From: Myxococcaceae bacterium
GTDB lineage: Bacteria > Myxococcota > Myxococcia > Myxococcales > Myxococcaceae
DNA: 39,845 bases
Direction: 5' to 3'
Assembly (NCBI GenBank): GCA_016926755.1
Contig: JAFGNZ010000052.1
Span: 1-39,845, forward strand
Positions 5,352 through 19,616 of this stretch are shown here, piece by piece (the first letter of the stretch is position 1; each line of letters opens with the position of its first letter). Made by a program: the position numbers and the translations under genes. The notes under the pieces are model-generated. The model did no database searches. It saw only the letters and a program-made list of their open reading frames with translations, and was not told where the DNA came from.

Positions 5352-8300
5352 GTGCGTTGTCCTCGCTGCCATCGGCGGCTCCCCGCATCCGTCCCGTGCC
5401 CGGCCCACCCGGGGGAGGTCGCGCCTTTCCCCGCGCGCGGCGCTCCCGCGCCACCCGAGCCGCTGCCGCCCGGTGTCACGCGGCTGGAGGGAGCGCTGGG
5501 CGAGGGCGGGTCGAGTGTGGTGTACGCGGTGGAGACCGACGACGGCGTCCCGCTGGCGTGGAAGGTCGGCCGCGCGGAGGTTGCCCCGCGCTTCGAGCGT
5601 GAGGCCGCGGCCCTCGGGAGGCTCGGTCCGCCGCATGTGCCGCGGCTCGTCTCGGCGGGCCGCGTGGGACCGCAGCCGTACCTGTTGCTCGAGCGCCTCG
5701 AGGGGGCCTCGCTGGCCGCGAGAATGGCCGACGCGTTCGCGCGCCCCGGTGGGCTCGCGCCGGCGGAATGTCTGCGCCTCGCCGCGAGGGCCGCCGACGC
5801 GCTCGCCGTGGTGCACGCCGCCGGGTGGTGCCACCGGGACGTGAAGCCGGAGAACCTGTGGATCCGTACGTCGGGCGAGATCTGCCTGCTCGACTTCGGA
5901 CTCGCCAAGCCCTCCGGGCCGGGCGCCGCGACGGGCGGCGGCGCGGACCTCACGCGCGCCGAGGAGCGCGTCGGCACCGTCGCATATATGGCGCCAGAGC
6001 AGTGCGTCGACTCGGCCGCGGCCACGGAGGCCGCCGACCTCTACGCGCTCGGCGCCGTGCTGTTCGAGTTGGTGGCGCTTCGCCCGCCGTTCGTGGGCGA
6101 CGCGTCGGAGATCCGCGACGCGCACGTCCACCGGCGCCCGCCCACGCTGGCGTCGCTCGGCGCCGACTGGCCCGAGCTCGAGCCGGTCCTGGCGCGGTGC
6201 CTCGAGAAGGATCCGGCGCGCCGCTTCGCCTCGGCCGAAGAGCTGGCTCGCGCGATTCGCGCCGTCTCCTTGCCCGCGCGCGAGGCGTCGCCATCGGCTG
6301 AAGAGCGCTCGCGAAGCTCCACCGCCACGCAGCGCCTCGCGCTGCTCGGCATCTCCACGCGCTGGCCCGTCGACGCGCTGGTCCAGGAGGCGGCGAACGC
6401 AGGCGGCGTGCTCGCGGGTGCATGGGAGGGACGGTATCTCTTCGCCTTCCCGGAGCACGCGTCGGCCGCCGCCGGGCTCGCCGCGGCCGAGCGCGTCTTC
6501 CAGCGCGCCTCGCAGCACGGTCCGTGCGAGGCGGTGACGCACGTGGCCACCGCGCGCGTCCGTGCGGGCGCGCGCGCGATTCGCATCCTCGGCCCTGACG
6601 TCTCGAACCCCGCGACCTGGTGGGACACCGCGGTTGGCGCCGGCGACGGGCCACGCCGCACGCCCGCGGCGCTCGAGTCGCGCTCCGGTGGCGAGCAGCC
6701 CAGGGCGACAAGGCCACAGACGGAGCCGCCGCTCGTCGGCCGCGGCGAGTGGGTCGATGAGCTCGTCCGGGCCCTGGCGGCCGCGACCTCGAGCGGCCCG
6801 CCGACGTTGTTCGCGCTCGCGGGCGCCGACGGCCTGGGCAAGACGCGGCTGCTGCGCGAGCTGCACGCGCGGCTCGAGGCGCGAGGTGTCCGGGTGCGGT
6901 GGTTGCCGGAGCCCGATCGCGGCGCCCCGGACGACGCCGCGGCCGAGGCAGAGCGGTTGCGCGCGGAGGGGGGTGTCTTCTTGATCGACGACGCCGATCG
7001 AGTGGACGCGTCGTGGATCCACATCATCGAGGCCGTGACCGTCGCCGATCGCGGCGCGCGCGTGGGCGCGGTCGTGGCGGGCGCGGAGCTGGCTCGCCGC
7101 TGGCCGGAGCTGGGCGAGCGCGCCGGCGCCTTCGCGCTGCACACGCTGGAGCCGCTGGGAGAGGCCGAGTTCGACGCGCTGCTCCGCGAGCTGATCCGCC
7201 CGGTCGAGTACGTCTCCGCCGAGCTGTTGGCCGACCTGCGCGCGCGCGCGCACGGCGTGCCGGGGCTCCTGATCGAGTGGGTGCGCGCGCTCGAGCGGAG
7301 TGGCGCCCTCGCGCCCGATCCAGCCACCGGCGAGTGGCGCCTCATGCCCAACGCCCTCCTCGTCCGCTCCTCGACGCCCCTGCTGGAGGCGCTGGCGAAG
7401 AACGCGCTCTCGCACCTGCCCGGCGACTTCCAGGACGTGGCGCGGCTGTGCGCGGTGCTCGGCGACGGCTCGCTCGAGCAGCTCTCGCGCGCGCTGTCGC
7501 AACTTCCGCGGTCCTGGGGCGCCTCCTCGCTCGACGCGCGGAGAGCGCTGGAGCGCGTCGCCGGTGCTGGCCTGGTGGCCTTCGATGCCGCGGGGTACCG
7601 CTTCCACCATCGGCTGATGGCGGAGGCGCTCGAGCGGACGCTGTCGCCGCCGGCGCGGCGCGCGCTGCACCGGGCGGCGTGGCTGTCGGCCTCGCTGGAG
7701 TCCGGACGCGCGCGGAGGGCGTTTCACGCAGAGGCGGCGCAGGAGCACGAGGCGGCCCAGCAGGAGTACCTCGCGGCGGCCGACGAGGCCCTGCGCGCGC
7801 GCCGCGACCTGGACGCCGAGGTATACCTGAGCGCCGCGCTGCAACAGCCCGCGGGCGCCGCGCGGTCGAGGGCCCGGTGGCTTTGGCTCAGGGCGCTGGC
7901 CCGCCGCAGGAGCCAGCGCTTCCGGGAGGCGCTCGACGACATCGACGCGGCGCTCGCGCTGGGGGCCGACGAGGTGACGCGCGTGGAGCTGCTGCTCGAG
8001 CGGGCCACCGCGCAAGACTGGCTGGAGGACTTCGCCGCCGGCACGGCGTCGACGGAGGAGGCCGCGCGCGCCGCGCGCACGGGTTCACTGCCTGAACCGA
8101 CCGGGCTCCGGCTGTCGCTGGCCGAGGGGCGCTCGGCCTTCCGCCTCGGAGATTGGGAGAAGGCGGTCGTGGTGCTCGGACCGCTCGCTGCCAGGGCGCA
8201 GGGCCTCGACGCCGAGTGCGAGGCCGTCTCGCGCGCGCTGCTCGGCGCCACGCTGGTGCTCCTGCAGCGGCTGGGCGAGGCGGAGGCCGAGTTCGCCCGG

Positions 8301-8951
8301 GCCATCGCCTGCTGCCGCGAACACCATGACTTCGTGCACCTGGGCGTCGCGTTGAGCAACCGCGTCCACCTGCACTTCGCGCGTGGCCAGCTCGAGGCCG
8401 CGCTCGGAGAGCTGCGCGAGGCGGTGAACCTGGCACGCGAGCACGCGCTGCCCCAGAACGAGCGGTGGAACAGCCACAACCTCGCGCAGTCCCTGACCTG
8501 GTTGGGCGATGCCTCCCAGGCGCTGCCGCTGGCCGAGCGCGCGCACCAGCTCGGGGTCCGGTTCTATGGCGACCGGATCTCTCCCACCTCGACGCTGTTA
8601 CTGGCGCGGCTACGGTTCCAGACGAACGACACGGTGGGCGCGGAACGCCTCGCACGGCCGGTGTTGGCCAGGCGCTCTTCGCTCTCGCCGTCGGATGCGG
8701 TCCAGGCCGAGCTGCTTTCACTCTGGCTGGATGGCGAGCCATCGCCGTGGGCCTGGAGCGCGTTGGCCGAGTCGGCCGAGGGCCTGCCGCCCGACGAGCA
8801 GACCGATCTGTGGGCCGAAGCCGCCAGAGCCCACCTGCGCGCCGGGCGCCGGGCGCTGGCCGCGCGCTGCCTCGCCGAAGCGCGACGGTGTGGCTCCTCG
8901 GGCACCACCTGGGTATGGCAGAGAGCGCTCAGCCAGCTCGACGCGTCGTAG
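5352..8951 (+). CDS. Ser/Thr protein kinase with N-terminal zinc ribbon, ATPase domain and TPR tail
   Basis: 1199 residues from the GTG at 5352, chosen because it yields the natural start (M)RCPRCHRRLP; a TTG at 5334 would add six residues. Order: a Cys-rich ribbon (CPRC...CPAHPG, residues ~2-22). Next a Hanks-type kinase with glycine loop GEGGSS (~50), LAWKV lysine, HRDVKPEN at 161, DFG at 181 and VGTVAYMAPEQ. Then a degenerate cyclase-like segment (~330-425). Then an AAA/STAND-like ATPase opening PPLVGRGEW, with Walker A GADGLGKT at 491-498 and Walker B VFLIDDAD at 542-549. Last are ~500 residues of Ala/Leu/Glu-rich TPR-like repeats. This architecture is typical of myxobacterial signalling kinases acting in the cytosol. 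The next gene, a lipoprotein, follows after 50 bases, so the two are likely co-transcribed. Confidence 0.9.
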   Translation: MRCPRCHRRLPASVPCPAHPGEVAPFPARGAPAPPEPLPPGVTRLEGALGEGGSSVVYAVETDDGVPLAWKVGRAEVAPRFEREAAALGRLGPPHVPRLVSAGRVGPQPYLLLERLEGASLAARMADAFARPGGLAPAECLRLAARAADALAVVHAAGWCHRDVKPENLWIRTSGEICLLDFGLAKPSGPGAATGGGADLTRAEERVGTVAYMAPEQCVDSAAATEAADLYALGAVLFELVALRPPFVGDASEIRDAHVHRRPPTLASLGADWPELEPVLARCLEKDPARRFASAEELARAIRAVSLPAREASPSAEERSRSSTATQRLALLGISTRWPVDALVQEAANAGGVLAGAWEGRYLFAFPEHASAAAGLAAAERVFQRASQHGPCEAVTHVATARVRAGARAIRILGPDVSNPATWWDTAVGAGDGPRRTPAALESRSGGEQPRATRPQTEPPLVGRGEWVDELVRALAAATSSGPPTLFALAGADGLGKTRLLRELHARLEARGVRVRWLPEPDRGAPDDAAAEAERLRAEGGVFLIDDADRVDASWIHIIEAVTVADRGARVGAVVAGAELARRWPELGERAGAFALHTLEPLGEAEFDALLRELIRPVEYVSAELLADLRARAHGVPGLLIEWVRALERSGALAPDPATGEWRLMPNALLVRSSTPLLEALAKNALSHLPGDFQDVARLCAVLGDGSLEQLSRALSQLPRSWGASSLDARRALERVAGAGLVAFDAAGYRFHHRLMAEALERTLSPPARRALHRAAWLSASLESGRARRAFHAEAAQEHEAAQQEYLAAADEALRARRDLDAEVYLSAALQQPAGAARSRARWLWLRALARRRSQRFREALDDIDAALALGADEVTRVELLLERATAQDWLEDFAAGTASTEEAARAARTGSLPEPTGLRLSLAEGRSAFRLGDWEKAVVVLGPLAARAQGLDAECEAVSRALLGATLVLLQRLGEAEAEFARAIACCREHHDFVHLGVALSNRVHLHFARGQLEAALGELREAVNLAREHALPQNERWNSHNLAQSLTWLGDASQALPLAERAHQLGVRFYGDRISPTSTLLLARLRFQTNDTVGAERLARPVLARRSSLSPSDAVQAELLSLWLDGEPSPWAWSALAESAEGLPPDEQTDLWAEAARAHLRAGRRALAARCLAEARRCGSSGTTWVWQRALSQLDAS

Positions 8952-9001
8952 GCGCACCCCTTGCACAAATCCTCACCGGACCCAGTGCTGAGGAGGCAAA
9001 G

Positions 9002-10414
9002 ATGTTGAATCGTGTAACCCTGGCGGTCACCCTTGTGCTGGTGGGGTGTGGCGTGGAGAGTTCCAGTCGGGATGAATCGAGCGGCGCTCCGGAGGTCATG
9101 GTGACGAGCGCCGAGGAGCTCACCGAGAGTGCGATCCGCAACGACGGCATCATCGTCGGGAACGCCCTGAGCACCCGCGCGCTCATGTTCAACGCGCTGT
9201 CGACCAACTACGCGGCGAACGATGCGCTGACCCAGAACCCCTTGACGAGCGCCACGTTCTCGAGCGTGACCGTGCTGCGCGAAGCGCTGGAGGACCCGGC
9301 CGCCCGCGAGTTCTTCGGGTACATGGTGGGGTGCGCGCTGTCGGGCAGTACGTCGGTATCGTGGACGTCGTCTGCCAACGTGACTCACACGTTCAAAGGT
9401 CAGGCGGGCCTGTGCGGGGAGTGGCAGAAGCTGTCGGCGGGAGCGCGCGTGAGTTCGGGCTGCCAGGAGCTGGTCAGCGCGTGCATCCTGGCGCGCAACA
9501 ACGCGTATGGCTTCCACGTGCCGCTCTCGGTGCGCGGCGACGACTCGGCCGGCGGTCCCACGCTCGCGGCTGGCTTGAAGTTCGGCGCGTACGACTGGCG
9601 AGACCGCAGCCGGACCGTGTCCAGCCTGGAGGCGTGCGGCTCGTCGAGCCATGGCGTCTCGCGGAACTGCGGCTTCCGCCCCGGGCATGTGCGCGCGTGC
9701 ACCCCGGGCGCCACCGTCACCGTCGCCGCCGGAGCGCCGTCCGAAGCACGGTGCAACGTCGACCCGCCGCTCGGCGCGGTCACGTCAGGAGACATGGTGC
9801 TCCGCGCCTGCGAGGGCCTGGCTGCCTGCGACAGCGGCACCCCCGAGCTGCTCGACGCCTCTGAGGGGTATGAGTGCCCCAACTATCTCTACAAGCCGAC
9901 GCTGAACTTCACCTGTCCGCCGAGCGGGCTGTTCAATGTGATGGAGGCGCCATACGCCAGTGAGTTCAGCGGCTCGGTCGAGCTCGGGGAGCTCGGCAGT
10001 GCGCCCGCGCTCGAGCAGGATCAGTTCGCGGTGCGCGAGGGCGCGTTCTTCGGCAACATCTTCGTGCCCGAGTCGCTGGCGTACGAGGTGACGTACAACA
10101 AGGGGCAGCAGCTCATCACGCCCATCAGTGGTGGCAAGGTCGTCTACAAGAGCATGCATACCTGCGCCGACGCGGCCTGGGAGCGGTCGGCCGACTACGC
10201 CTGGACTCGAGTCTGCACCAGCGGCTACTGCGCGGCCCATTCGATCGGTGTGTGCCAGAGCAAGTGCGGGGTCGACTCCACCGGAGACGGGGAGTTCCGC
10301 ACGTGCTGGGACGACTCCTCTTCCTCTTCCTGGTCGTTCGGGCTCACGACCTTCCTCCACCACGCGTGCGACCTGCGCCCCAGTGGTGATCCCAAGAGCT
10401 GTAATCGCTGGTGA
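9002..10414 (+). CDS. NAL-repeat, Cys-rich lipoprotein of a myxobacterial family
   Basis: 470 residues with an excellent ribosome site (GAGGAGG at 8990-8996). The leader ends LVGC, giving lipid attachment at Cys16, so it is an envelope lipoprotein. An Asn-Ala-Leu-rich stretch follows (GNALSTRALMFNALSTN...DALTQNPLT), then FFGYMVGCAL, a Gly-rich GLCGEWQ segment and VSACILARNNAYGFHVPLSVRG. I know this order from a family greatly expanded in myxobacterial genomes, function unknown. The remainder is Cys-rich with CxxxC pairs and a Ser run near residue 450. It lies between two kinase genes and overlaps the second by four bases (GTGA), suggesting a sensor or substrate role for the envelope side. That role is inferred from context. 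Confidence 0.75.
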   Translation: MLNRVTLAVTLVLVGCGVESSSRDESSGAPEVMVTSAEELTESAIRNDGIIVGNALSTRALMFNALSTNYAANDALTQNPLTSATFSSVTVLREALEDPAAREFFGYMVGCALSGSTSVSWTSSANVTHTFKGQAGLCGEWQKLSAGARVSSGCQELVSACILARNNAYGFHVPLSVRGDDSAGGPTLAAGLKFGAYDWRDRSRTVSSLEACGSSSHGVSRNCGFRPGHVRACTPGATVTVAAGAPSEARCNVDPPLGAVTSGDMVLRACEGLAACDSGTPELLDASEGYECPNYLYKPTLNFTCPPSGLFNVMEAPYASEFSGSVELGELGSAPALEQDQFAVREGAFFGNIFVPESLAYEVTYNKGQQLITPISGGKVVYKSMHTCADAAWERSADYAWTRVCTSGYCAAHSIGVCQSKCGVDSTGDGEFRTCWDDSSSSSWSFGLTTFLHHACDLRPSGDPKSCNRW

Positions 10415-11647: not shown

Positions 11648-12994
11648 TCAGCCCTCGGAGCCGGCGGCCCGCCGGCTGCGCCGCATGATCCGGTGCAGGG
11701 ACACGCGGTCGATCTCTGCCGCCTGCGCCGCGGCGGTGACGTTGCCGTTGTGCAGCTCGAGCAGCTTCTGGACGTACCCGCGCTCGAAGGCCTCGATGGC
11801 TTTGCGCTTGGCGTCGGCGTATGGCACCGAGGCGTCGATGATCAGCTCGCCGCCCTCGTCGGTGGTGGGGTCAGCTGGGCTCAGCTCGAGCTCGCGCTCG
11901 AAGACGAGGCAGCGCTCCAGGTAGTTGCGCAGCTCGCGGACGTTGCCCGGCCAGGCGGCCTGCCGCAGCCGCTCGACGAACTCGGGGGTGCACACCCGCT
12001 GGACGACGTCCGGCGGCGCCTTCAGCTCATCGAGCAGGCCCTCCACCACGAAGGAGATATCCTCGGCGTGCGCGCGGAGTGGCGGCAGCATGACGCACAC
12101 CACCGCCAGCCGGAAGAAGAGATCGGGCCGGAAGCGACCCGAGTTCACCTCGGTGCGCAGGTCCCGGTGTGTGGCGGCGATGAGCCGGACGTTGACGGGC
12201 ACGTACTGGTTCGAGCCCACCCGGCGGATCTCCTTCGCGTCCAGCGCGCGGAGCAGCTTGGGCTGCAGCTCGAGCGGCAGCTCGCCGATCTCGTCGATGA
12301 ACACCGTGCCGCCGTTCGCCTCCTCGAAGATGCCGATGCGCCGCTGCTGGGCGCCCGAGAACGCTCCCCGCTCGTGCCCGAACAGCTCGGTCTCCAGCAG
12401 GTTCGCCGGCAGCGAGCCGCAGTCGACGGTGAGGAAGGGCCGGCTCCTGCGCGCGCTGGCCGCGTGCACCGACCGCGCCGCGCGGCTCTTGCCCGTGCCG
12501 GTCTCCCCGAGCAGCAACACGGTGGCGTCGCTCGCCGCCGCCCGCTCGAGCATCGCGAAGCACGAGCGCATGGAGGCCGAGCTCCCCCTGAGCGACCCGA
12601 ACCGGGTGTTCTCGGAGATCTCCAGCCGGTTGCTCTCGAGCGAGAAGTCGAACCTCAAGGTGACCCGGCCGAGACGGATCAGGCTGCCGCCGCGCAGGTA
12701 TCCATCGTTCACCTGCAGCCCGTCCACGTAGATGCCGTTCAAGCTCTCGAGGTCGCGGATGCGCGCGCCCTTCGGCGTCATCGTTATCTCGCAGTGGAAG
12801 CGCGAGACCGTGGCGTCGGCCAGCCGGAGCTGGTTCAACTCGTGCTGGCCGATGGTGCAGGCGTCTTCGCGCGACTCGTACGTCTTGCCCGCGTCATCGC
12901 CGTCGAGCACGGAGAGCTTGAAGCGCCTCACTCGCGGCCCTTCCGCCGGCTGCGAGGAGCCATGGGGTATGGTCTTGCGATCGTCGGTGCTCAT
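11648..12994 (-). CDS. FHA-AAA+-Fis transcriptional activator (sigma54-dependent type, GAFSGA variant)
   Basis: 448 residues. N-terminal FHA domain (~25-115) with SRFH and LNGIYVDG, the phosphothreonine-binding core. AAA+ domain (~130-360) with Walker A GETGTGKS at 163-170, a TVFIDEIGE Walker B, and the sigma54-contacting loop as GAFSGA at 210-215 instead of GAFTGA. C-terminal Fis-type helix-turn-helix (~415-440). Such proteins read phosphorylation by Ser/Thr kinases and activate target promoters; two kinase genes lie right beside it. The changed loop is conservative but leaves open whether it works with sigma54. A dyad and a strong hairpin lie upstream. Likely targets are the four-gene run just behind it, by proximity. 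Confidence 0.92.
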
Positions 12995-13848: not shown

Positions 13849-15582
13849 TCACGGGTGCAGCAGGTAGTAGACGTCGGCGCCGTCGCTGGTCAGGCCGCGG
13901 AGCAGCACCGTGTTCGTGTCGGAGAGGGCCAGCGCCTCGACGAAGGTGACGCCCTTCTCCTGCGCCACCTGGTCGATCCGGATCACCTTGCCAACGTTGT
14001 CGGTCAGGTACGGCACGGGGCCGCTCTTGCCGCAGTCGGCGGTGCCCGTGAACCAGCCGGCCTCGTTGAGGTCCTTCACCGTGGCCGAGCTGCAGCCCGA
14101 AGGCAGCGGCTGCCACACGAGGCCCTTCTTCGGCTCCCAGCGGAAGGGCTGCATCTGCCCCTGGGCGTTGCGCGCGTGGCCCACCACCATGCCGGACGCG
14201 ATGGTGTCGACCGCCTCGCCCTCGAACTGGCTGAGCACGCTGACGCTGTCCTCGTAGACCAGCGCCGGCATGGGCTTCTGGTCCGAGAGCAAGCCGACGG
14301 CGAACTGGCCCGCGCTGTTGCCCGCGGCGCGCGAGAGCATCAGGGACTGGAGCTTGGGCAACGGCCTCGCGCCGGTCTCGTCCAGCGCGCGCCACTCGCC
14401 TGGGGCCGTGAGGTCCCGCGCCAGGGCCAGCCCCAGCGGGTTGATGCCGACGGGCTCCACGTCTTTGTACGCCCGCGCTTCTTCCTGGTGCATGTTCCAC
14501 AGGAAGGCGACGGGCGAGTCTCCTTGCTTCGCGTTGCCCAGGAGCTCACCGCCGGGCGTGTAGGCCACCACCGTCGGGTCGCTGAGCTTGAGGAGTGATG
14601 ACAGGTCCACCGACTCTTGCGACTTCGGATCGTAGAGCGCGTCGCCCGCCTTTCCGCGGAAGAGCACCCGGCCGTCGGCGAGCAGGCCGAAGGGCCGGCC
14701 CTGCATGAGCAGCAGCCGGAGCACCGACGGCGGGATCGTGATGTAGCACGCGTGCCGGTCCACCAGCGCCATGCCGATGGCGCCACCGGCCGAGGCCACG
14801 ATCTGCGCGCTGCCCGTCCATGATGGGGAGATGGCCACGGTGAAGCGCGCGGAACGCCTGCCCTCGGGGACGATCACCGGCCGCACCTGCACGTGCGATG
14901 GGTCGGTGCTGCGCAGGTCGACCGTCGCGCCGCCCGCCGGAGCCATCGACTCCAGTGTGACTACGCCACCGGCATAGGTGGTGCTGCTGGACGCGCAGCG
15001 CGAGCCCGGCAGGTCCAGCGACACCGAGGCAAGCAACGGCCGCGGCAGCCCGCCGAACGCGCGGAAGGTGCGGACCTCGACCTCCTTGCTGAAGCCCCAG
15101 CAGGCCGGCCAGACGTACTGGCAGCCCTCGACGAAGATCTTCGACCCTGGTCCTGGGATGAGCAGCACGTCGTACGCACACGCTACGCCGCCGCACGTGG
15201 GCGTGGCGGTCCCGGGCACCAGGAGCGCCTGGGCGACGATCTGGCCGCTGAGCCGCTCGATGTGGGTGGAGCCCGAGATCAGCGTCGGCGAGAGGCTCTG
15301 GTTGAACGTCCAGATGATGGTGCTGCCGCTCCGCGCGCCGGTGAGGCGCACAGAGTCGGGGTGGGAGATGCCGAGGTGGGAGAGCGGCACCGTGATGTCG
15401 AGGGTCCCGGCCGGCTTGGGGATGAGCCATTCGCCGGCCGTGAAGGTCTCGCCGTCGAGGCGCGCCTGGGCATGGATGAACCGGAGGTTCGTGCCGCGCC
15501 GGACGTCGTCGATGGCATCGGCGTGCGCCGCGGTGGCCGCGGTGAGCACGGCCAGGAGGCAGTACGTGAGCTTTCGATTCAT
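13849..15582 (-). CDS. Secreted protein with HAF-like repeat C-terminus
   Basis: 577 residues from the ATG at 15582 (GAGAGG upstream). A Sec signal peptide is visible (hydrophobic core LLAVLTAATA, cleavage after AHA near residue 21). Residues ~25-290 look beta-rich, with Ig-like strands and two Cys pairs (CGGVAC, CQYVWPAC). Residues ~300-577 carry spaced units resembling HAF-type extracellular repeats: AFLWNMHQEEARAY, then PFRWEPKKGLVWQPL followed by VKDLNEAGWFTGTADC. Such repeats form propeller-like folds in exported proteins. No catalytic motif was seen. Its gene lies 11 bases from both neighbours, so the three downstream genes are a tight operon and the products probably act together outside the inner membrane. 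Confidence 0.75.
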   Translation of the reverse strand: MNRKLTYCLLAVLTAATAAHADAIDDVRRGTNLRFIHAQARLDGETFTAGEWLIPKPAGTLDITVPLSHLGISHPDSVRLTGARSGSTIIWTFNQSLSPTLISGSTHIERLSGQIVAQALLVPGTATPTCGGVACAYDVLLIPGPGSKIFVEGCQYVWPACWGFSKEVEVRTFRAFGGLPRPLLASVSLDLPGSRCASSSTTYAGGVVTLESMAPAGGATVDLRSTDPSHVQVRPVIVPEGRRSARFTVAISPSWTGSAQIVASAGGAIGMALVDRHACYITIPPSVLRLLLMQGRPFGLLADGRVLFRGKAGDALYDPKSQESVDLSSLLKLSDPTVVAYTPGGELLGNAKQGDSPVAFLWNMHQEEARAYKDVEPVGINPLGLALARDLTAPGEWRALDETGARPLPKLQSLMLSRAAGNSAGQFAVGLLSDQKPMPALVYEDSVSVLSQFEGEAVDTIASGMVVGHARNAQGQMQPFRWEPKKGLVWQPLPSGCSSATVKDLNEAGWFTGTADCGKSGPVPYLTDNVGKVIRIDQVAQEKGVTFVEALALSDTNTVLLRGLTSDGADVYYLLHP

Positions 15583-15593
15583 GGACGTTCCTC

Positions 15594-17423
15594 TCACAGG
15601 GTGAGGCGGTTGAGCAGCGCGCGGGCCTGGACGCGGTACGCCGCGGGCACCGACGGGTTCATGAGGACTGCCTGCAGCGACTGCACGACTGCGGGCGAGG
15701 CGGTCTTGGCGTCGTTGAGCAGCGCCATGAGCGTGCGCTCCGCGCCGGGAGCCAGGCGCCGCTCGACGAGCAGGTCGCGCAGGCCGAGCTGCTGCTCATC
15801 GGTCAGCGCCCGGTGGCGGAGCGCGTCGAACAGCGCGGCCTGTCCCTCGGCCGAGCTCTCGTGCCCGAGCCGCTCCAACAAGAGCGCGGTCGCCTCCGGC
15901 GTGGTGACCCGGCGCAGCGCGATGGCCGCGGCGGCGCGCAGCGAGTCGTCATTCGACGCGAGCACGTCTCGCACCGCATCGGTCGTGCGCGGGTCCCCAG
16001 CGTTGCCGAGCGCGCGCAGGGCCAGCTCCTGGTCTCGAGCGTCGATCGCCAGCTGCAGGTCGTCGAGGAGGACGTCTCCGGCGAGCGTGGCCAGCGCCGA
16101 GTCTTTGCCGCGCATCCGGTTGGCCATCGAGCCGAGGGTGAAGGCGCGCACGCGGCGCTGCGCGCCGTCCTTGGCGGCGAGCGCGGCGGCGTGCTCGTCG
16201 AGCACGAACTGCACCGCCTCGCGGGTCGGCTGGGCGACGAGGCCCAGGCGCTGGTAGAGCTCCTCGAAGACGCGGGGGTCTTGCTTCGCCACGTCCTGGC
16301 TCATGATGGCCCGCAGCGCCGCCTGCGCCTCGGCGTGGCCGGCCGAGACCAGCAGGTCCACGAGCTGAGCGCGCATCGGATCGGAGGAGAGCCGGGCGAA
16401 GGCCGGCACCAGCTCGCGGCACTTCTCCGGGTGGAGCTCCAGGTAGCCGGCCGCCTGCCAGACGAACTGCGCACGGTTGGCCAGCTTCTTCGGGTCGTCG
16501 GTCGACTCGAGCGTCTGCAGCACGTCCTCGAAGGTGATTCCACCGGCGCGCGACTCGAGCAGCGCGCGCTTCACGTCGATCTCCTGGGCCAGCGGGCCCG
16601 GAGTGCGCACCACCGGCTTGTCCGTGGGCCGCGCCGCCACCACCGACGCCTTGCGGGTCTCCTTCGAGCGCAAGGTGAGGGAGTGGGTCATCCGGAGCAG
16701 CGGCTTGCCGGCGGCGTCGCCGGCCTCGACGTTCTCGCGGAGGTCAACCGACTCGAGCGGCCCCTCGCCACTGAAGCGGAACGTGGCGTGCGACTCGACC
16801 CGGATGTCCTTCGGCGCGCCGATCGCGAGGCGGAGCTGCGTGAAATGCGTCCGCGTGCGCGCCAGGGTGCTCCTCGCGTCGTCGGCCCAGTGAGCCACGC
16901 TCTCGACATCGCCCGCGGGCAGCCGCTCGGTGTAGGAGAGCGGCGCGTCGCCAGGGAGGCGCGGGAACAGCTCTGCCGCCAGGGCCTGCAAGAGGTAGCG
17001 GTTGAGCGCCCCATCGCTCTCGGCGAAGCGCACGGATTCGATGGAGCCGTTCTCCTCGACCATCACCAGCGCCTCGGCACCCTCGAGCCCTTCGGCAGGG
17101 AGCTTCTGGCCCAGCACCTCGGAGTCGAACCGCCAGAGCCGCTCCACCTTGAGCAGCACGCCCGTGCGCGTCGCATCGCCGTCCCCCGGCGTCAGGCTCA
17201 CGTCGGCCTCGAGCGCCAGCCCGCCAGCCAACATGCCTTCACCGGTCGGCATCGCCGAGGTCTGCTGCTGCTGCCAATCGAGCGCATACACGCGCGTGAC
17301 GCCCGGTTGCCATCGCTGCACGCGCGAGGCCACCGCAGAAGATTCCGCTCCAGCGCCCCACAGGACGCCCGCTGCCACCAGCACCGCCACCGCCAGGCAC
17401 ACTGTCACCAGGATCCGCTTCAT
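15594..17423 (-). CDS. Exported helical-repeat protein resembling the vitellogenin/MTP lipid-transfer N-terminal module
   Basis: 609 residues from the ATG at 17423 (GGAG upstream). Signal peptide or N-terminal anchor at 5-24. Residues ~38-260 are beta-rich with YALDWQQQ, GLALEADVSL and an ENGSIESVRFAESD...LNRYLLQALAAELFPRLP segment. Residues ~285-609 are paired helices, with AFTLGSMANRM (427-437) and LALRALGNAGDP (467-478). This order (beta barrel, 'NG...V..LN...LQ' segment, helical horseshoe with 'GS..NR' and 'LKALGNAG') is that of the LPD_N/Vitellogenin_N module of eukaryotic large lipid-transfer proteins. A generic HEAT-repeat protein is the alternative, since 'ALGNAGDP' also occurs in HEAT units. 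The terminator just upstream and the tight spacing downstream are described separately. Confidence 0.7.
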   Translation of the reverse strand: MKRILVTVCLAVAVLVAAGVLWGAGAESSAVASRVQRWQPGVTRVYALDWQQQQTSAMPTGEGMLAGGLALEADVSLTPGDGDATRTGVLLKVERLWRFDSEVLGQKLPAEGLEGAEALVMVEENGSIESVRFAESDGALNRYLLQALAAELFPRLPGDAPLSYTERLPAGDVESVAHWADDARSTLARTRTHFTQLRLAIGAPKDIRVESHATFRFSGEGPLESVDLRENVEAGDAAGKPLLRMTHSLTLRSKETRKASVVAARPTDKPVVRTPGPLAQEIDVKRALLESRAGGITFEDVLQTLESTDDPKKLANRAQFVWQAAGYLELHPEKCRELVPAFARLSSDPMRAQLVDLLVSAGHAEAQAALRAIMSQDVAKQDPRVFEELYQRLGLVAQPTREAVQFVLDEHAAALAAKDGAQRRVRAFTLGSMANRMRGKDSALATLAGDVLLDDLQLAIDARDQELALRALGNAGDPRTTDAVRDVLASNDDSLRAAAAIALRRVTTPEATALLLERLGHESSAEGQAALFDALRHRALTDEQQLGLRDLLVERRLAPGAERTLMALLNDAKTASPAVVQSLQAVLMNPSVPAAYRVQARALLNRLTL

Positions 17424-17446
17424 CGCCCATGCTCCTTCATTGAGAG

Positions 17447-17480
17447 AAAAGGGGACCGCCGACGCCAACCGGCGGTCCCC
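17447..17480 (-). terminator. Intrinsic terminator/attenuator inside the four-gene run
   Basis: Perfect 10-bp stem GGGGACCGCC (17451-17460) / GGCGGTCCCC (17471-17480) with a 10-nt loop. On the leftward transcript it is followed directly by TTTTCTCT. It lies between the 706-residue secreted protein gene and the lipid-transfer-like gene, whose start is only 24 bases beyond. So it should cut expression of the three distal genes relative to the first. Confidence 0.8.
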
Positions 17481-17495
17481 GTCACAGCTACCTGC

Positions 17496-19616
17496 TCACA
17501 AGCGGGTGAGCGGTACGTCCACCGACTCGTTGAAGATGGGGACCTCGGGGCCGCCGAAGCCGGACCAGGAGACGATGGTGACCTCGCCGCGGATGCAGAA
17601 CGGGCAGGGCCCGAGCTCGCCGAACAGCGAGATGCGCCCGTCGAGGTAGCGCTGCCTGATCGCCAGCGACAGCCTCAGCCGCAGGATCAGCTCAGACGTC
17701 GAAGACAGGTAGATGCCCGCCGACCCGCGCAGCGGCACGTCGACGCGGGCGATGAGGACCGAGCCGCGGATACCCGCGCGGAAGCCCGGGATGCCCACTG
17801 CCACCGACGCGAAGCCCGACACGCCGGTGTACGGCTTCATGGAGCCCGTCAGGTCGATCCCCACCATGTCCATGCTGCAGTCGCGAGAGACCTGACCGCC
17901 CAGGCGGAACTCGACGCCGATGTTGGCCGAGATGCCGCCGGACACGGTCACCGGGATGAAGGCAATCCAGAAGGTGCCGGTCGCCTCTCCCACCGTGCCG
18001 TCAACGAAGGTGGGGTTGGCCACCTGGAAGTCGAGGAACGCCGGCGCGCGCGTGTCATTGCGGTAGACCTCCGAGCCCCCCAGGCGCGCCAGGATGAACA
18101 TGTGGATGTCGTTGTTGTCGGTCTCGAGGAAGCCCTCGACGTGCGCGACCTCACCGCCGGCGCCAAAGACCCAGGCCGACGCGGTGGCGTGGCCGCCGAA
18201 GCGCAGCTCGGCGTCGCAGAAGCGCGAGCCCCAGGTCGCCGACCACTCGCCGCCGTAGTTCAGCGCCCCGCCGAAGGTCGAGCGGTCACCGAACTCGCCC
18301 CCGTCGGAGTAGGTGCCGCCGCGCCGCGTGGTGCCGGTGGAGGGATCTTTCGGCTCGCCGAGCCCCCCGATGTACTCCCAGTAGATGGCGAGGTACTCGG
18401 CCAACAGCGAGGGGCTGAGCGTGTAGTCCTTGAGCTTCAGCCCTGGCAGCTTGAGCAGCAGCGCGTTCCGCACGAAGCTCGTGTCGCTGAAGTCATCGGC
18501 GGTCAGCTGCAGGCACTGGGTGAGGTCCTGCTGACGGCGCTGGTCCATCACCCGGCTCACCATGTCCTTGTAGAGCCGCGGGCTCCAGTCGCACCGGGTG
18601 ACCGCCTGCGCGTCGAGGCAGCCGTCCTGCTCGGCCTTGATGAGCGCGGCCTCGATGCGAGCATCGGCGGTGCGCAGGTCCTGCGCGACCTGCTTGGCCA
18701 ACACCTCCGGGTTCTTCGCCTGCTTCACGACGGCCTGGTACGAGTCCCAGATGCCCTGGCGCTCGGCGAGCAGGTCTTCGAAGTCGCGCTGCTTCACGCG
18801 AAGCTCGTCCAGGACGTCATCGGCCTCCTTGACGAGCTGCTTGCTCATCTGCGCGTGCCACGAGTCGGTGACGGCGTAGAAGCTGCGAGCCGTCGGGTTG
18901 TTGGCCTTTGCCGCGGCGTCGGACTTGAACTCATACGGCAGCTGCCCGGAGGGGTACGGGCCCGGCTGGAAGAGGAAGTACGCGCTCTTCGGGGCCTTCA
19001 CCTTCCCGTCGAAGATGGGCGCGAGCGGCTTCTGATCGCTGCCGTAGAGCGTTCTGTTGGCGATGCCGTCGTTCGAGAACGCGTGGTTGAGCAGGGCGCG
19101 GAAGTCGGCGCCGTGCACACCCGCCTTTGCCTCGAACGTGGAGTACCCCAGGTACTTCTCGTGAACGTACTCGCGGCAGGAGCGGATGAGGGTGCCGTTG
19201 CCCTCCCACTCCTTCAGCGCTTTCGCGTGCTGAGCTTCGGCCTGCGAGAGGTTCTGGAAGTTCTTGCGGTGGAGGATCTGATTGGCGGAGACCAGTCCCG
19301 ACACCTGGGTGGTGAGGCCGGCGAAGTTCGAGGTCGTCGGCTGTACCGGCGCCAGCGAACCGACAGCGGCCACGCTGCCGCCGAGCTCGTCCGGCAGCAG
19401 GCGCTGCACCTGCGGAAGCTTGCCGACCTGCGTCTCCCATTCGGTGTCGATGAGCGACTCGCAGTATGACTTGTAGTTGGGGAAGCACGCGCCCGAGCGA
19501 TAGCTCTCGTCGACGCACTCGGACACGGTGGGTTTGGGGCAGGTTTGCGCCGAGGCACAAAGGGACGTGCCCAGGACCAGGGCGTACGCTGCCGCCCGCA
19601 GACTTCTGAAACGCAT
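17496..19616 (-). CDS. Large secreted protein, helical N-half and beta-rich C-half
   Basis: 706 residues. Signal peptide (AAAYALVLGTSLCASA, cleavage near residue 23). The N-terminal half is helical with several Cys residues (CPKPTVSEC, CFPNYKSYC). A charged coiled-coil-like stretch lies at ~262-330. Residues ~430-700 are strand-rich with long amphipathic beta segments and many Gly (VTVSGGISANIGVEFRLGG, GFASVAVGIPGFRAGIRGS), ending GPCPFCIRGEVTIVS. No family recognised. It is the promoter-proximal gene of the leftward run, and a terminator after it suggests it is made in excess over its operon partners. If the neighbour is a lipid-transfer module, the amphipathic beta region could be a lipid-binding or assembly partner; that is speculation. 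Confidence 0.75.
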   Translation of the reverse strand: MRFRSLRAAAYALVLGTSLCASAQTCPKPTVSECVDESYRSGACFPNYKSYCESLIDTEWETQVGKLPQVQRLLPDELGGSVAAVGSLAPVQPTTSNFAGLTTQVSGLVSANQILHRKNFQNLSQAEAQHAKALKEWEGNGTLIRSCREYVHEKYLGYSTFEAKAGVHGADFRALLNHAFSNDGIANRTLYGSDQKPLAPIFDGKVKAPKSAYFLFQPGPYPSGQLPYEFKSDAAAKANNPTARSFYAVTDSWHAQMSKQLVKEADDVLDELRVKQRDFEDLLAERQGIWDSYQAVVKQAKNPEVLAKQVAQDLRTADARIEAALIKAEQDGCLDAQAVTRCDWSPRLYKDMVSRVMDQRRQQDLTQCLQLTADDFSDTSFVRNALLLKLPGLKLKDYTLSPSLLAEYLAIYWEYIGGLGEPKDPSTGTTRRGGTYSDGGEFGDRSTFGGALNYGGEWSATWGSRFCDAELRFGGHATASAWVFGAGGEVAHVEGFLETDNNDIHMFILARLGGSEVYRNDTRAPAFLDFQVANPTFVDGTVGEATGTFWIAFIPVTVSGGISANIGVEFRLGGQVSRDCSMDMVGIDLTGSMKPYTGVSGFASVAVGIPGFRAGIRGSVLIARVDVPLRGSAGIYLSSTSELILRLRLSLAIRQRYLDGRISLFGELGPCPFCIRGEVTIVSWSGFGGPEVPIFNESVDVPLTRL

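Follow-up and report, generated by a model that had tools for sequence, protein, structure and literature searches.

A probable myxobacterial homologue of the LPD_N module of animal large lipid-transfer proteins and its near-constant pairing with a gene for a secreted beta-domain protein

The LPD_N fold (Vitellogenin_N, PF01347) is treated as a hallmark of animal lipoprotein assembly, and the question raised by the present locus is whether a myxobacterium encodes a relative of this module and, if so, with which other component it might operate. The window, that is the whole stretch of DNA that was analysed (39,845 nucleotides from a Myxococcaceae bacterium), carries a gene for a 609-residue protein to which an earlier note had ascribed the architecture of LPD_N. 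The position given there (17423-15594, 609 codons) proved exact, the strand, which had gone unnamed, being minus, and the motifs quoted there, 'NGSIESV', 'LNRYLLQALAAEL', 'GSMANRM' and 'LRALGNAGDP', are all present in the protein. The gene and its parts are:

15594-17423, minus strand: gene for the LPD_N-like protein, 609 aa
17340-17423, minus strand: residues 1-28, a hydrophobic segment predicted to be a signal peptide or a membrane anchor; hydrophobic N-terminus and linker conserved in homologues
16629-17318, minus strand: N-terminal part rich in beta structure (residues 36-265), which aligns with the N-sheet of large lipid-transfer proteins (LLTPs)
16911-16928, minus strand: E166-x4-G171 signature, E and G each kept in 58 of 59 family members
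15597-16628, minus strand: helical repeat part, residues 266-609, with the Pfam Vitellogenin_N stretch at 351-509 and HEAT_2 at 462-535
16002-16004, minus strand: codon of Asn474, a residue kept in 56 of 59 members and corresponding to Asn479 of MTP

The open reading frame has an ATG start with an AAGGAG-type ribosome site upstream, and it represents a real gene because its closest homologue is collinear over the full length at 44% identity, the differences between the two are fewest at codon position 2 and most frequent at position 3 (0.44/0.37/0.47), the GC content by codon position is 0.76/0.48/0.91, and relatives were found in 42 of 98 related genomes. A 1218-aa frame on the opposite strand (15813-19469, plus) overlaps both this gene and its upstream neighbour, and was taken as a spurious antisense frame of high-GC DNA. 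As the N-terminus of the relatives resembles a membrane anchor with a Pro/Ala-rich linker behind it, 'exported', the term used previously for this protein, may here denote tethered and periplasmic, and the protein is probably exported and held at the inner membrane. The beta-rich part starts with W-x-PG-x4-Y and continues with a central helix and E-x4-G, and would be expected to adopt a barrel fold, while the reading frame ends after the helical domain, such that the C and A sheets that form the lipid cavity are absent from the polypeptide.

Against Vitellogenin_N the window protein itself scored E 0.0029 and 16.7 bits, below the Pfam cut-off of 24 (residues 351-509 with model positions 356-526), and its sole Pfam match over the respective cut-off was HEAT_2 (E 5.6e-9). 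Vitellogenin_N was matched by 29 of 36 full-length homologues with a best E value of 2.6e-18, many homologues exceeding the cut-off and single ones reaching 60 bits. Pfam matches in the family are confined to the helical part, where the bacterial proteins match a model stretch of approximately 302-585 and a few generic HEAT proteins match the last third only; this stretch, coupled with collinear hhalign alignments to lipovitellin and MTP, identifies a helical domain of the LLTP type that goes beyond HEAT repeats. Matches to PF01347 over the cut-off occur in 53 of 195 Myxococcota genomes, at no more than five places per genome and mostly in frames of 600-780 aa, and in none of the 14 control genomes. 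Several LPD_N paralogues were observed in some genomes (G148, G004 and others), and locus L046 holds two in a single 18-kb stretch (8021-9886 and 11563 onward). The sole match in a scan of genome contigs was a HEAT fragment from a Bacillota metagenome-assembled genome, and the viral contigs scanned held no relatives.

In a PDB search with the family profile, residues 92-507 of the lipovitellin chain (1LSH) were matched with an E value of 5.8e-12, and MTP with one of 1.9e-4. The LLTP sequences used in the comparisons below were taken from PDB matches. Nearly all entries above 1LSH were designed alphaRep proteins, and since such designed HEAT proteins outscore 1LSH on the repeats, the PDB match alone is no proof of a specific relation. 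With HMMER the profile of the beta part matched no LLTP in the PDB, its relation to these proteins emerging only in profile-profile comparison. In hhalign the family was aligned to lipovitellin at 96.6% and E 5.9e-10, residues 11-494 being collinear with 1-508 in an alignment that begins at the first strand and runs past the LGNAG helix. When all repeat helices were removed, the N-terminal beta part alone still ranked lipovitellin first of 229 with a score of 36.8, as compared to a mean of 13.7 (s.d. 2.6, maximum 20.7) for decoys consisting of 226 unrelated reading frames from the same loci, and to at most 15.9 for 200 column shuffles. The N-terminal and middle regions without HEAT_2 scored 46.7 with lipovitellin and 37.0 with MTP, the best decoy reaching 21.6. 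Known LLTPs score 54-77 against each other on the N-sheet, from which it follows that the bacterial family is remote; its identity to the animal proteins is about 13%, and the N-sheet of apoB alone was unmatched by the family profile. The E-x4-G-x5-Y spacing of lipovitellin and MTP is kept, with the Y present in 47 of 59 members and replaced by Ala in the window protein.

A single-sequence AlphaFold model of the 609-aa protein (pLDDT 51.6, pTM 0.32) places strands, a helix and then a helical repeat in succession. With this low-confidence model the top five of 350,542 PDB chains in Foldseek were MTP, lipovitellin, MTP, apoB and apoB (E 2.2e-7 to 2.3e-4), the LLTPs preceding all HEAT and ARM proteins; as TM-scores were low, at about 0.3, and VIA-align put generic HEAT solenoids first, the Foldseek result backs the relation without establishing the fold. 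The LPD_N relationship asserted in the earlier note is thus upheld across the beta part as well as the helical part by Pfam matches in relatives, PDB profile search, hhalign and Foldseek, and the gene very probably encodes, as judged from sequence, a bacterial homologue of the LPD_N module of animal large lipid-transfer proteins, a module that consists of a beta barrel and a helical horseshoe.

The gene lies within a compact minus-strand cluster, between genes for two secreted proteins of 706 and 582 aa:

17496-19616, minus strand: partner gene, 706 aa, adjoining the LPD_N gene on its upstream side; the protein has a signal peptide, an N-terminal region that is helical and Cys-rich, and a C-terminal beta domain
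17499-18302, minus strand: amphipathic beta domain at the partner C-terminus, about 268 aa, the part common to all loci
17451-17480, minus strand: terminator-like hairpin in the gap between the partner and LPD_N genes, 13 pairs with a T-rich tail
13849-15597, minus strand: third gene of the cluster, for a secreted protein of 582 aa; retained downstream of LPD_N in none but the nearest loci (L032, L033, L034, L035 and L036)

The beta domain, of about 260 aa, was present in a neighbouring secreted protein at every locus read in detail. In the type to which the window belongs it forms the C-terminal end of a protein of 700-1000 aa whose gene lies upstream of LPD_N, and in a second type it is a protein of 390-440 aa whose gene may stand up- or downstream. 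A search of 98 genomes with this domain returned 73 places, of which 66 are at most 5 kb away from a tabulated match to LPD_N and a further six adjoin an LPD_N frame found with the family profile, so that 72 of 73 adjoin an LPD_N gene, the last one being located on an 8.5-kb contig fragment. The pairing of the two genes is therefore near perfect, and a functional complex of the two proteins is likely. In beta geometry the domain shows strong amphipathicity (z of 3-7 in 18 of 19, as compared to -0.3 for the 582-aa neighbour used as a control) and has a hydropathy of 0.0 to +0.4. Its comparison with the C and A sheets of MTP and lipovitellin gave scores at shuffle level and no profile similarity, nothing was matched in the PDB, and nothing significant in Pfam, Vit_open_b-sht reaching a non-significant E of 0.089 in one partner homologue; an AlphaFold model of the domain was unusable (pLDDT 33). 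The N-terminal region of the window partner (residues 25-438 of the protein encoded at 17496-19616, minus) is Cys-rich, contains the conserved motifs 'YVHEKYxxYSxFE' and 'CDWSPxxF', and matched no family, and the 582-aa protein had no significant match in Pfam or NCBIfam.

GC-rich inverted repeats with unrelated stem sequences were recognised by eye in the same 60-120-bp gap at L032, L033, L036, L037, L038 and L041, the remaining loci having gaps of 2-24 bp and no hairpin between the partner and LPD_N genes. The putative hairpins may set expression of the partner above that of LPD_N, possibly as a leaky terminator or as an mRNA stabiliser that determines the subunit ratio. A gene for a sigma-54-type activator is located near the pair in the window (11648-12994, minus), and homologues of it were observed near the LPD_N loci L032, L041, L050 and L051.

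In MTP a half barrel and a helical domain are combined with a lipid-binding domain built of two sheets, and its Asn479 hydrogen-bonds the C-sheet of the lipid cavity (PMC7444587), while vitellogenin comprises barrel, helical, DUF1943 and vWF domains (PMC8727950). The Leu-x-Asn of MTP helix 10 has its counterparts in Leu472 (54 of 59 members) and Asn474, and the retention of a docking Asn in a protein devoid of a C-sheet fits a sheet that is supplied in trans. Taking all observations together we lean towards an LPD_N homologue in a split system with its partner as the best explanation, within which docking, a cavity and a cargo are what we infer from the sequences. The secreted partner would dock its amphipathic beta domain in the LPD_N horseshoe via the conserved helix-10 Asn face, and a hydrophobic cavity would be formed by the two proteins jointly. 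LPD_N, as the tethered subunit, would load or hand over a lipid or other hydrophobic cargo, and the partner would carry this cargo across the periplasm or to the surface. Transfer of a lipid or hydrophobic cargo has a probability just short of even, and no lipid-related gene was recognised directly beside the pair in the window. The full proposal, of a two-subunit bacterial large lipid-transfer machine in which a membrane-tethered LPD_N protein and a secreted subunit that completes the lipid cavity in trans move lipids through the envelope or to the cell surface, is advanced as a tentative one.

It may instead be that the LPD_N homologue is a dedicated chaperone or assembly platform for its partner, the latter being a secreted, surface or outer-membrane beta protein, and does not itself move lipid. 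The near-obligate pairing with one partner family is in agreement with this view, as are the amphipathicity and positive hydropathy of the partner, which are those of a membrane-inserting or aggregation-prone beta protein, and the lack of lipid-cavity sheets in LPD_N itself; MTP, moreover, also chaperones apoB. However, cavity formation accounts just as well for a conserved Asn at the face where the C-sheet docks, and most partner C-termini do not possess the terminal aromatic residue usual in outer-membrane barrels, and we regard this alternative as rather unlikely.

The two other readings concern the relationship to LPD_N itself. A plain HEAT-repeat solenoid joined to an unrelated beta-rich N-terminal domain, with the likeness to LPD_N due to repeat convergence, would account for HEAT_2 being the only Pfam match over its cut-off in the window protein, for the alphaRep proteins that outrank 1LSH and for the generic HEAT proteins listed by VIA-align, but is rendered improbable by the rank of lipovitellin, far above the decoys, with a beta part devoid of any HEAT repeat, by the match of the relatives to PF01347 302-585 where generic HEAT proteins reach its last third only, and by Foldseek, in which hundreds of HEAT and ARM chains rank below every LLTP. 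For a domain known mainly from animals one might suspect that an animal gene was acquired recently, or that the sequence is a eukaryotic contaminant, yet the GC and codon pattern is myxobacterial, the identity to the animal proteins is about 13%, the gene has its own partner, and the spread of the family across numerous myxobacterial genomes, each with several paralogues, contradicts such an origin, which is consequently most improbable.

In the literature searched we found no description of a bacterial LLTP or LPD_N, of the pairing with a partner or of the split arrangement. The more canonical members are already recognised by curated profiles, so that the bacterial occurrence of the domain is implicit in databases, and the near-obligate beta-rich partner tells us more than the domain does. 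A bacterial branch of such diversity, with a partner of its own and several paralogues in a genome, would provide the LPD_N fold with a prokaryotic relative and, if the split system for which we argue is correct, the animal lipoprotein machinery with a split bacterial counterpart. It would also suggest a candidate route by which neutral or polar lipids might cross the envelope of the lipid-rich and developmentally complex myxobacteria, and would allow ideas on where vitellogenin, MTP and apoB came from to be tested directly in bacteria amenable to genetics.

When set beside known systems, the bacterial protein shares with HEAT_2 and HEAT_PBS proteins, such as alphaRep and the phycobilin lyases, C-terminal repeats that score as HEAT_2, whereas generic HEAT proteins have neither the N-terminal beta part nor the PF01347-specific stretch nor the partner gene. 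The N-terminal region of apoB-100 was among the top Foldseek matches and its helical part could be aligned, although its N-sheet alone was unmatched by profile and the bacterial protein has no equivalent of the giant lipid-belt region. The MTP large subunit (6I7S, 8EOJ) was the top match in Foldseek and second in hhalign without HEAT_2, and its helix-10 Leu-x-Asn is conserved; however, MTP is itself equipped with a lipid-binding domain at its C-terminus and has PDI as its partner (PMC7444587), while the bacterial protein ends after its helices and has as partner an unrelated beta protein without a Pfam match. Lipovitellin/vitellogenin (1LSH, PF01347) is collinear with the bacterial family by profile over both N-sheet and helical domain, the W/F-x-PG-x4-Y start, the G-x-V strand, the central helix, E-x4-G-x5-Y and LxALGNAG being in register. 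Unlike vitellogenin, the bacterial polypeptide contains no DUF1943, C and A sheets, vWD domain or N-sheet cysteines, and neither DUF1943 nor vWF type D was matched in Pfam by the 609-aa protein or its two neighbours; the bacterial protein is, moreover, predicted to be exported or tethered, and its partner is encoded by a separate gene.
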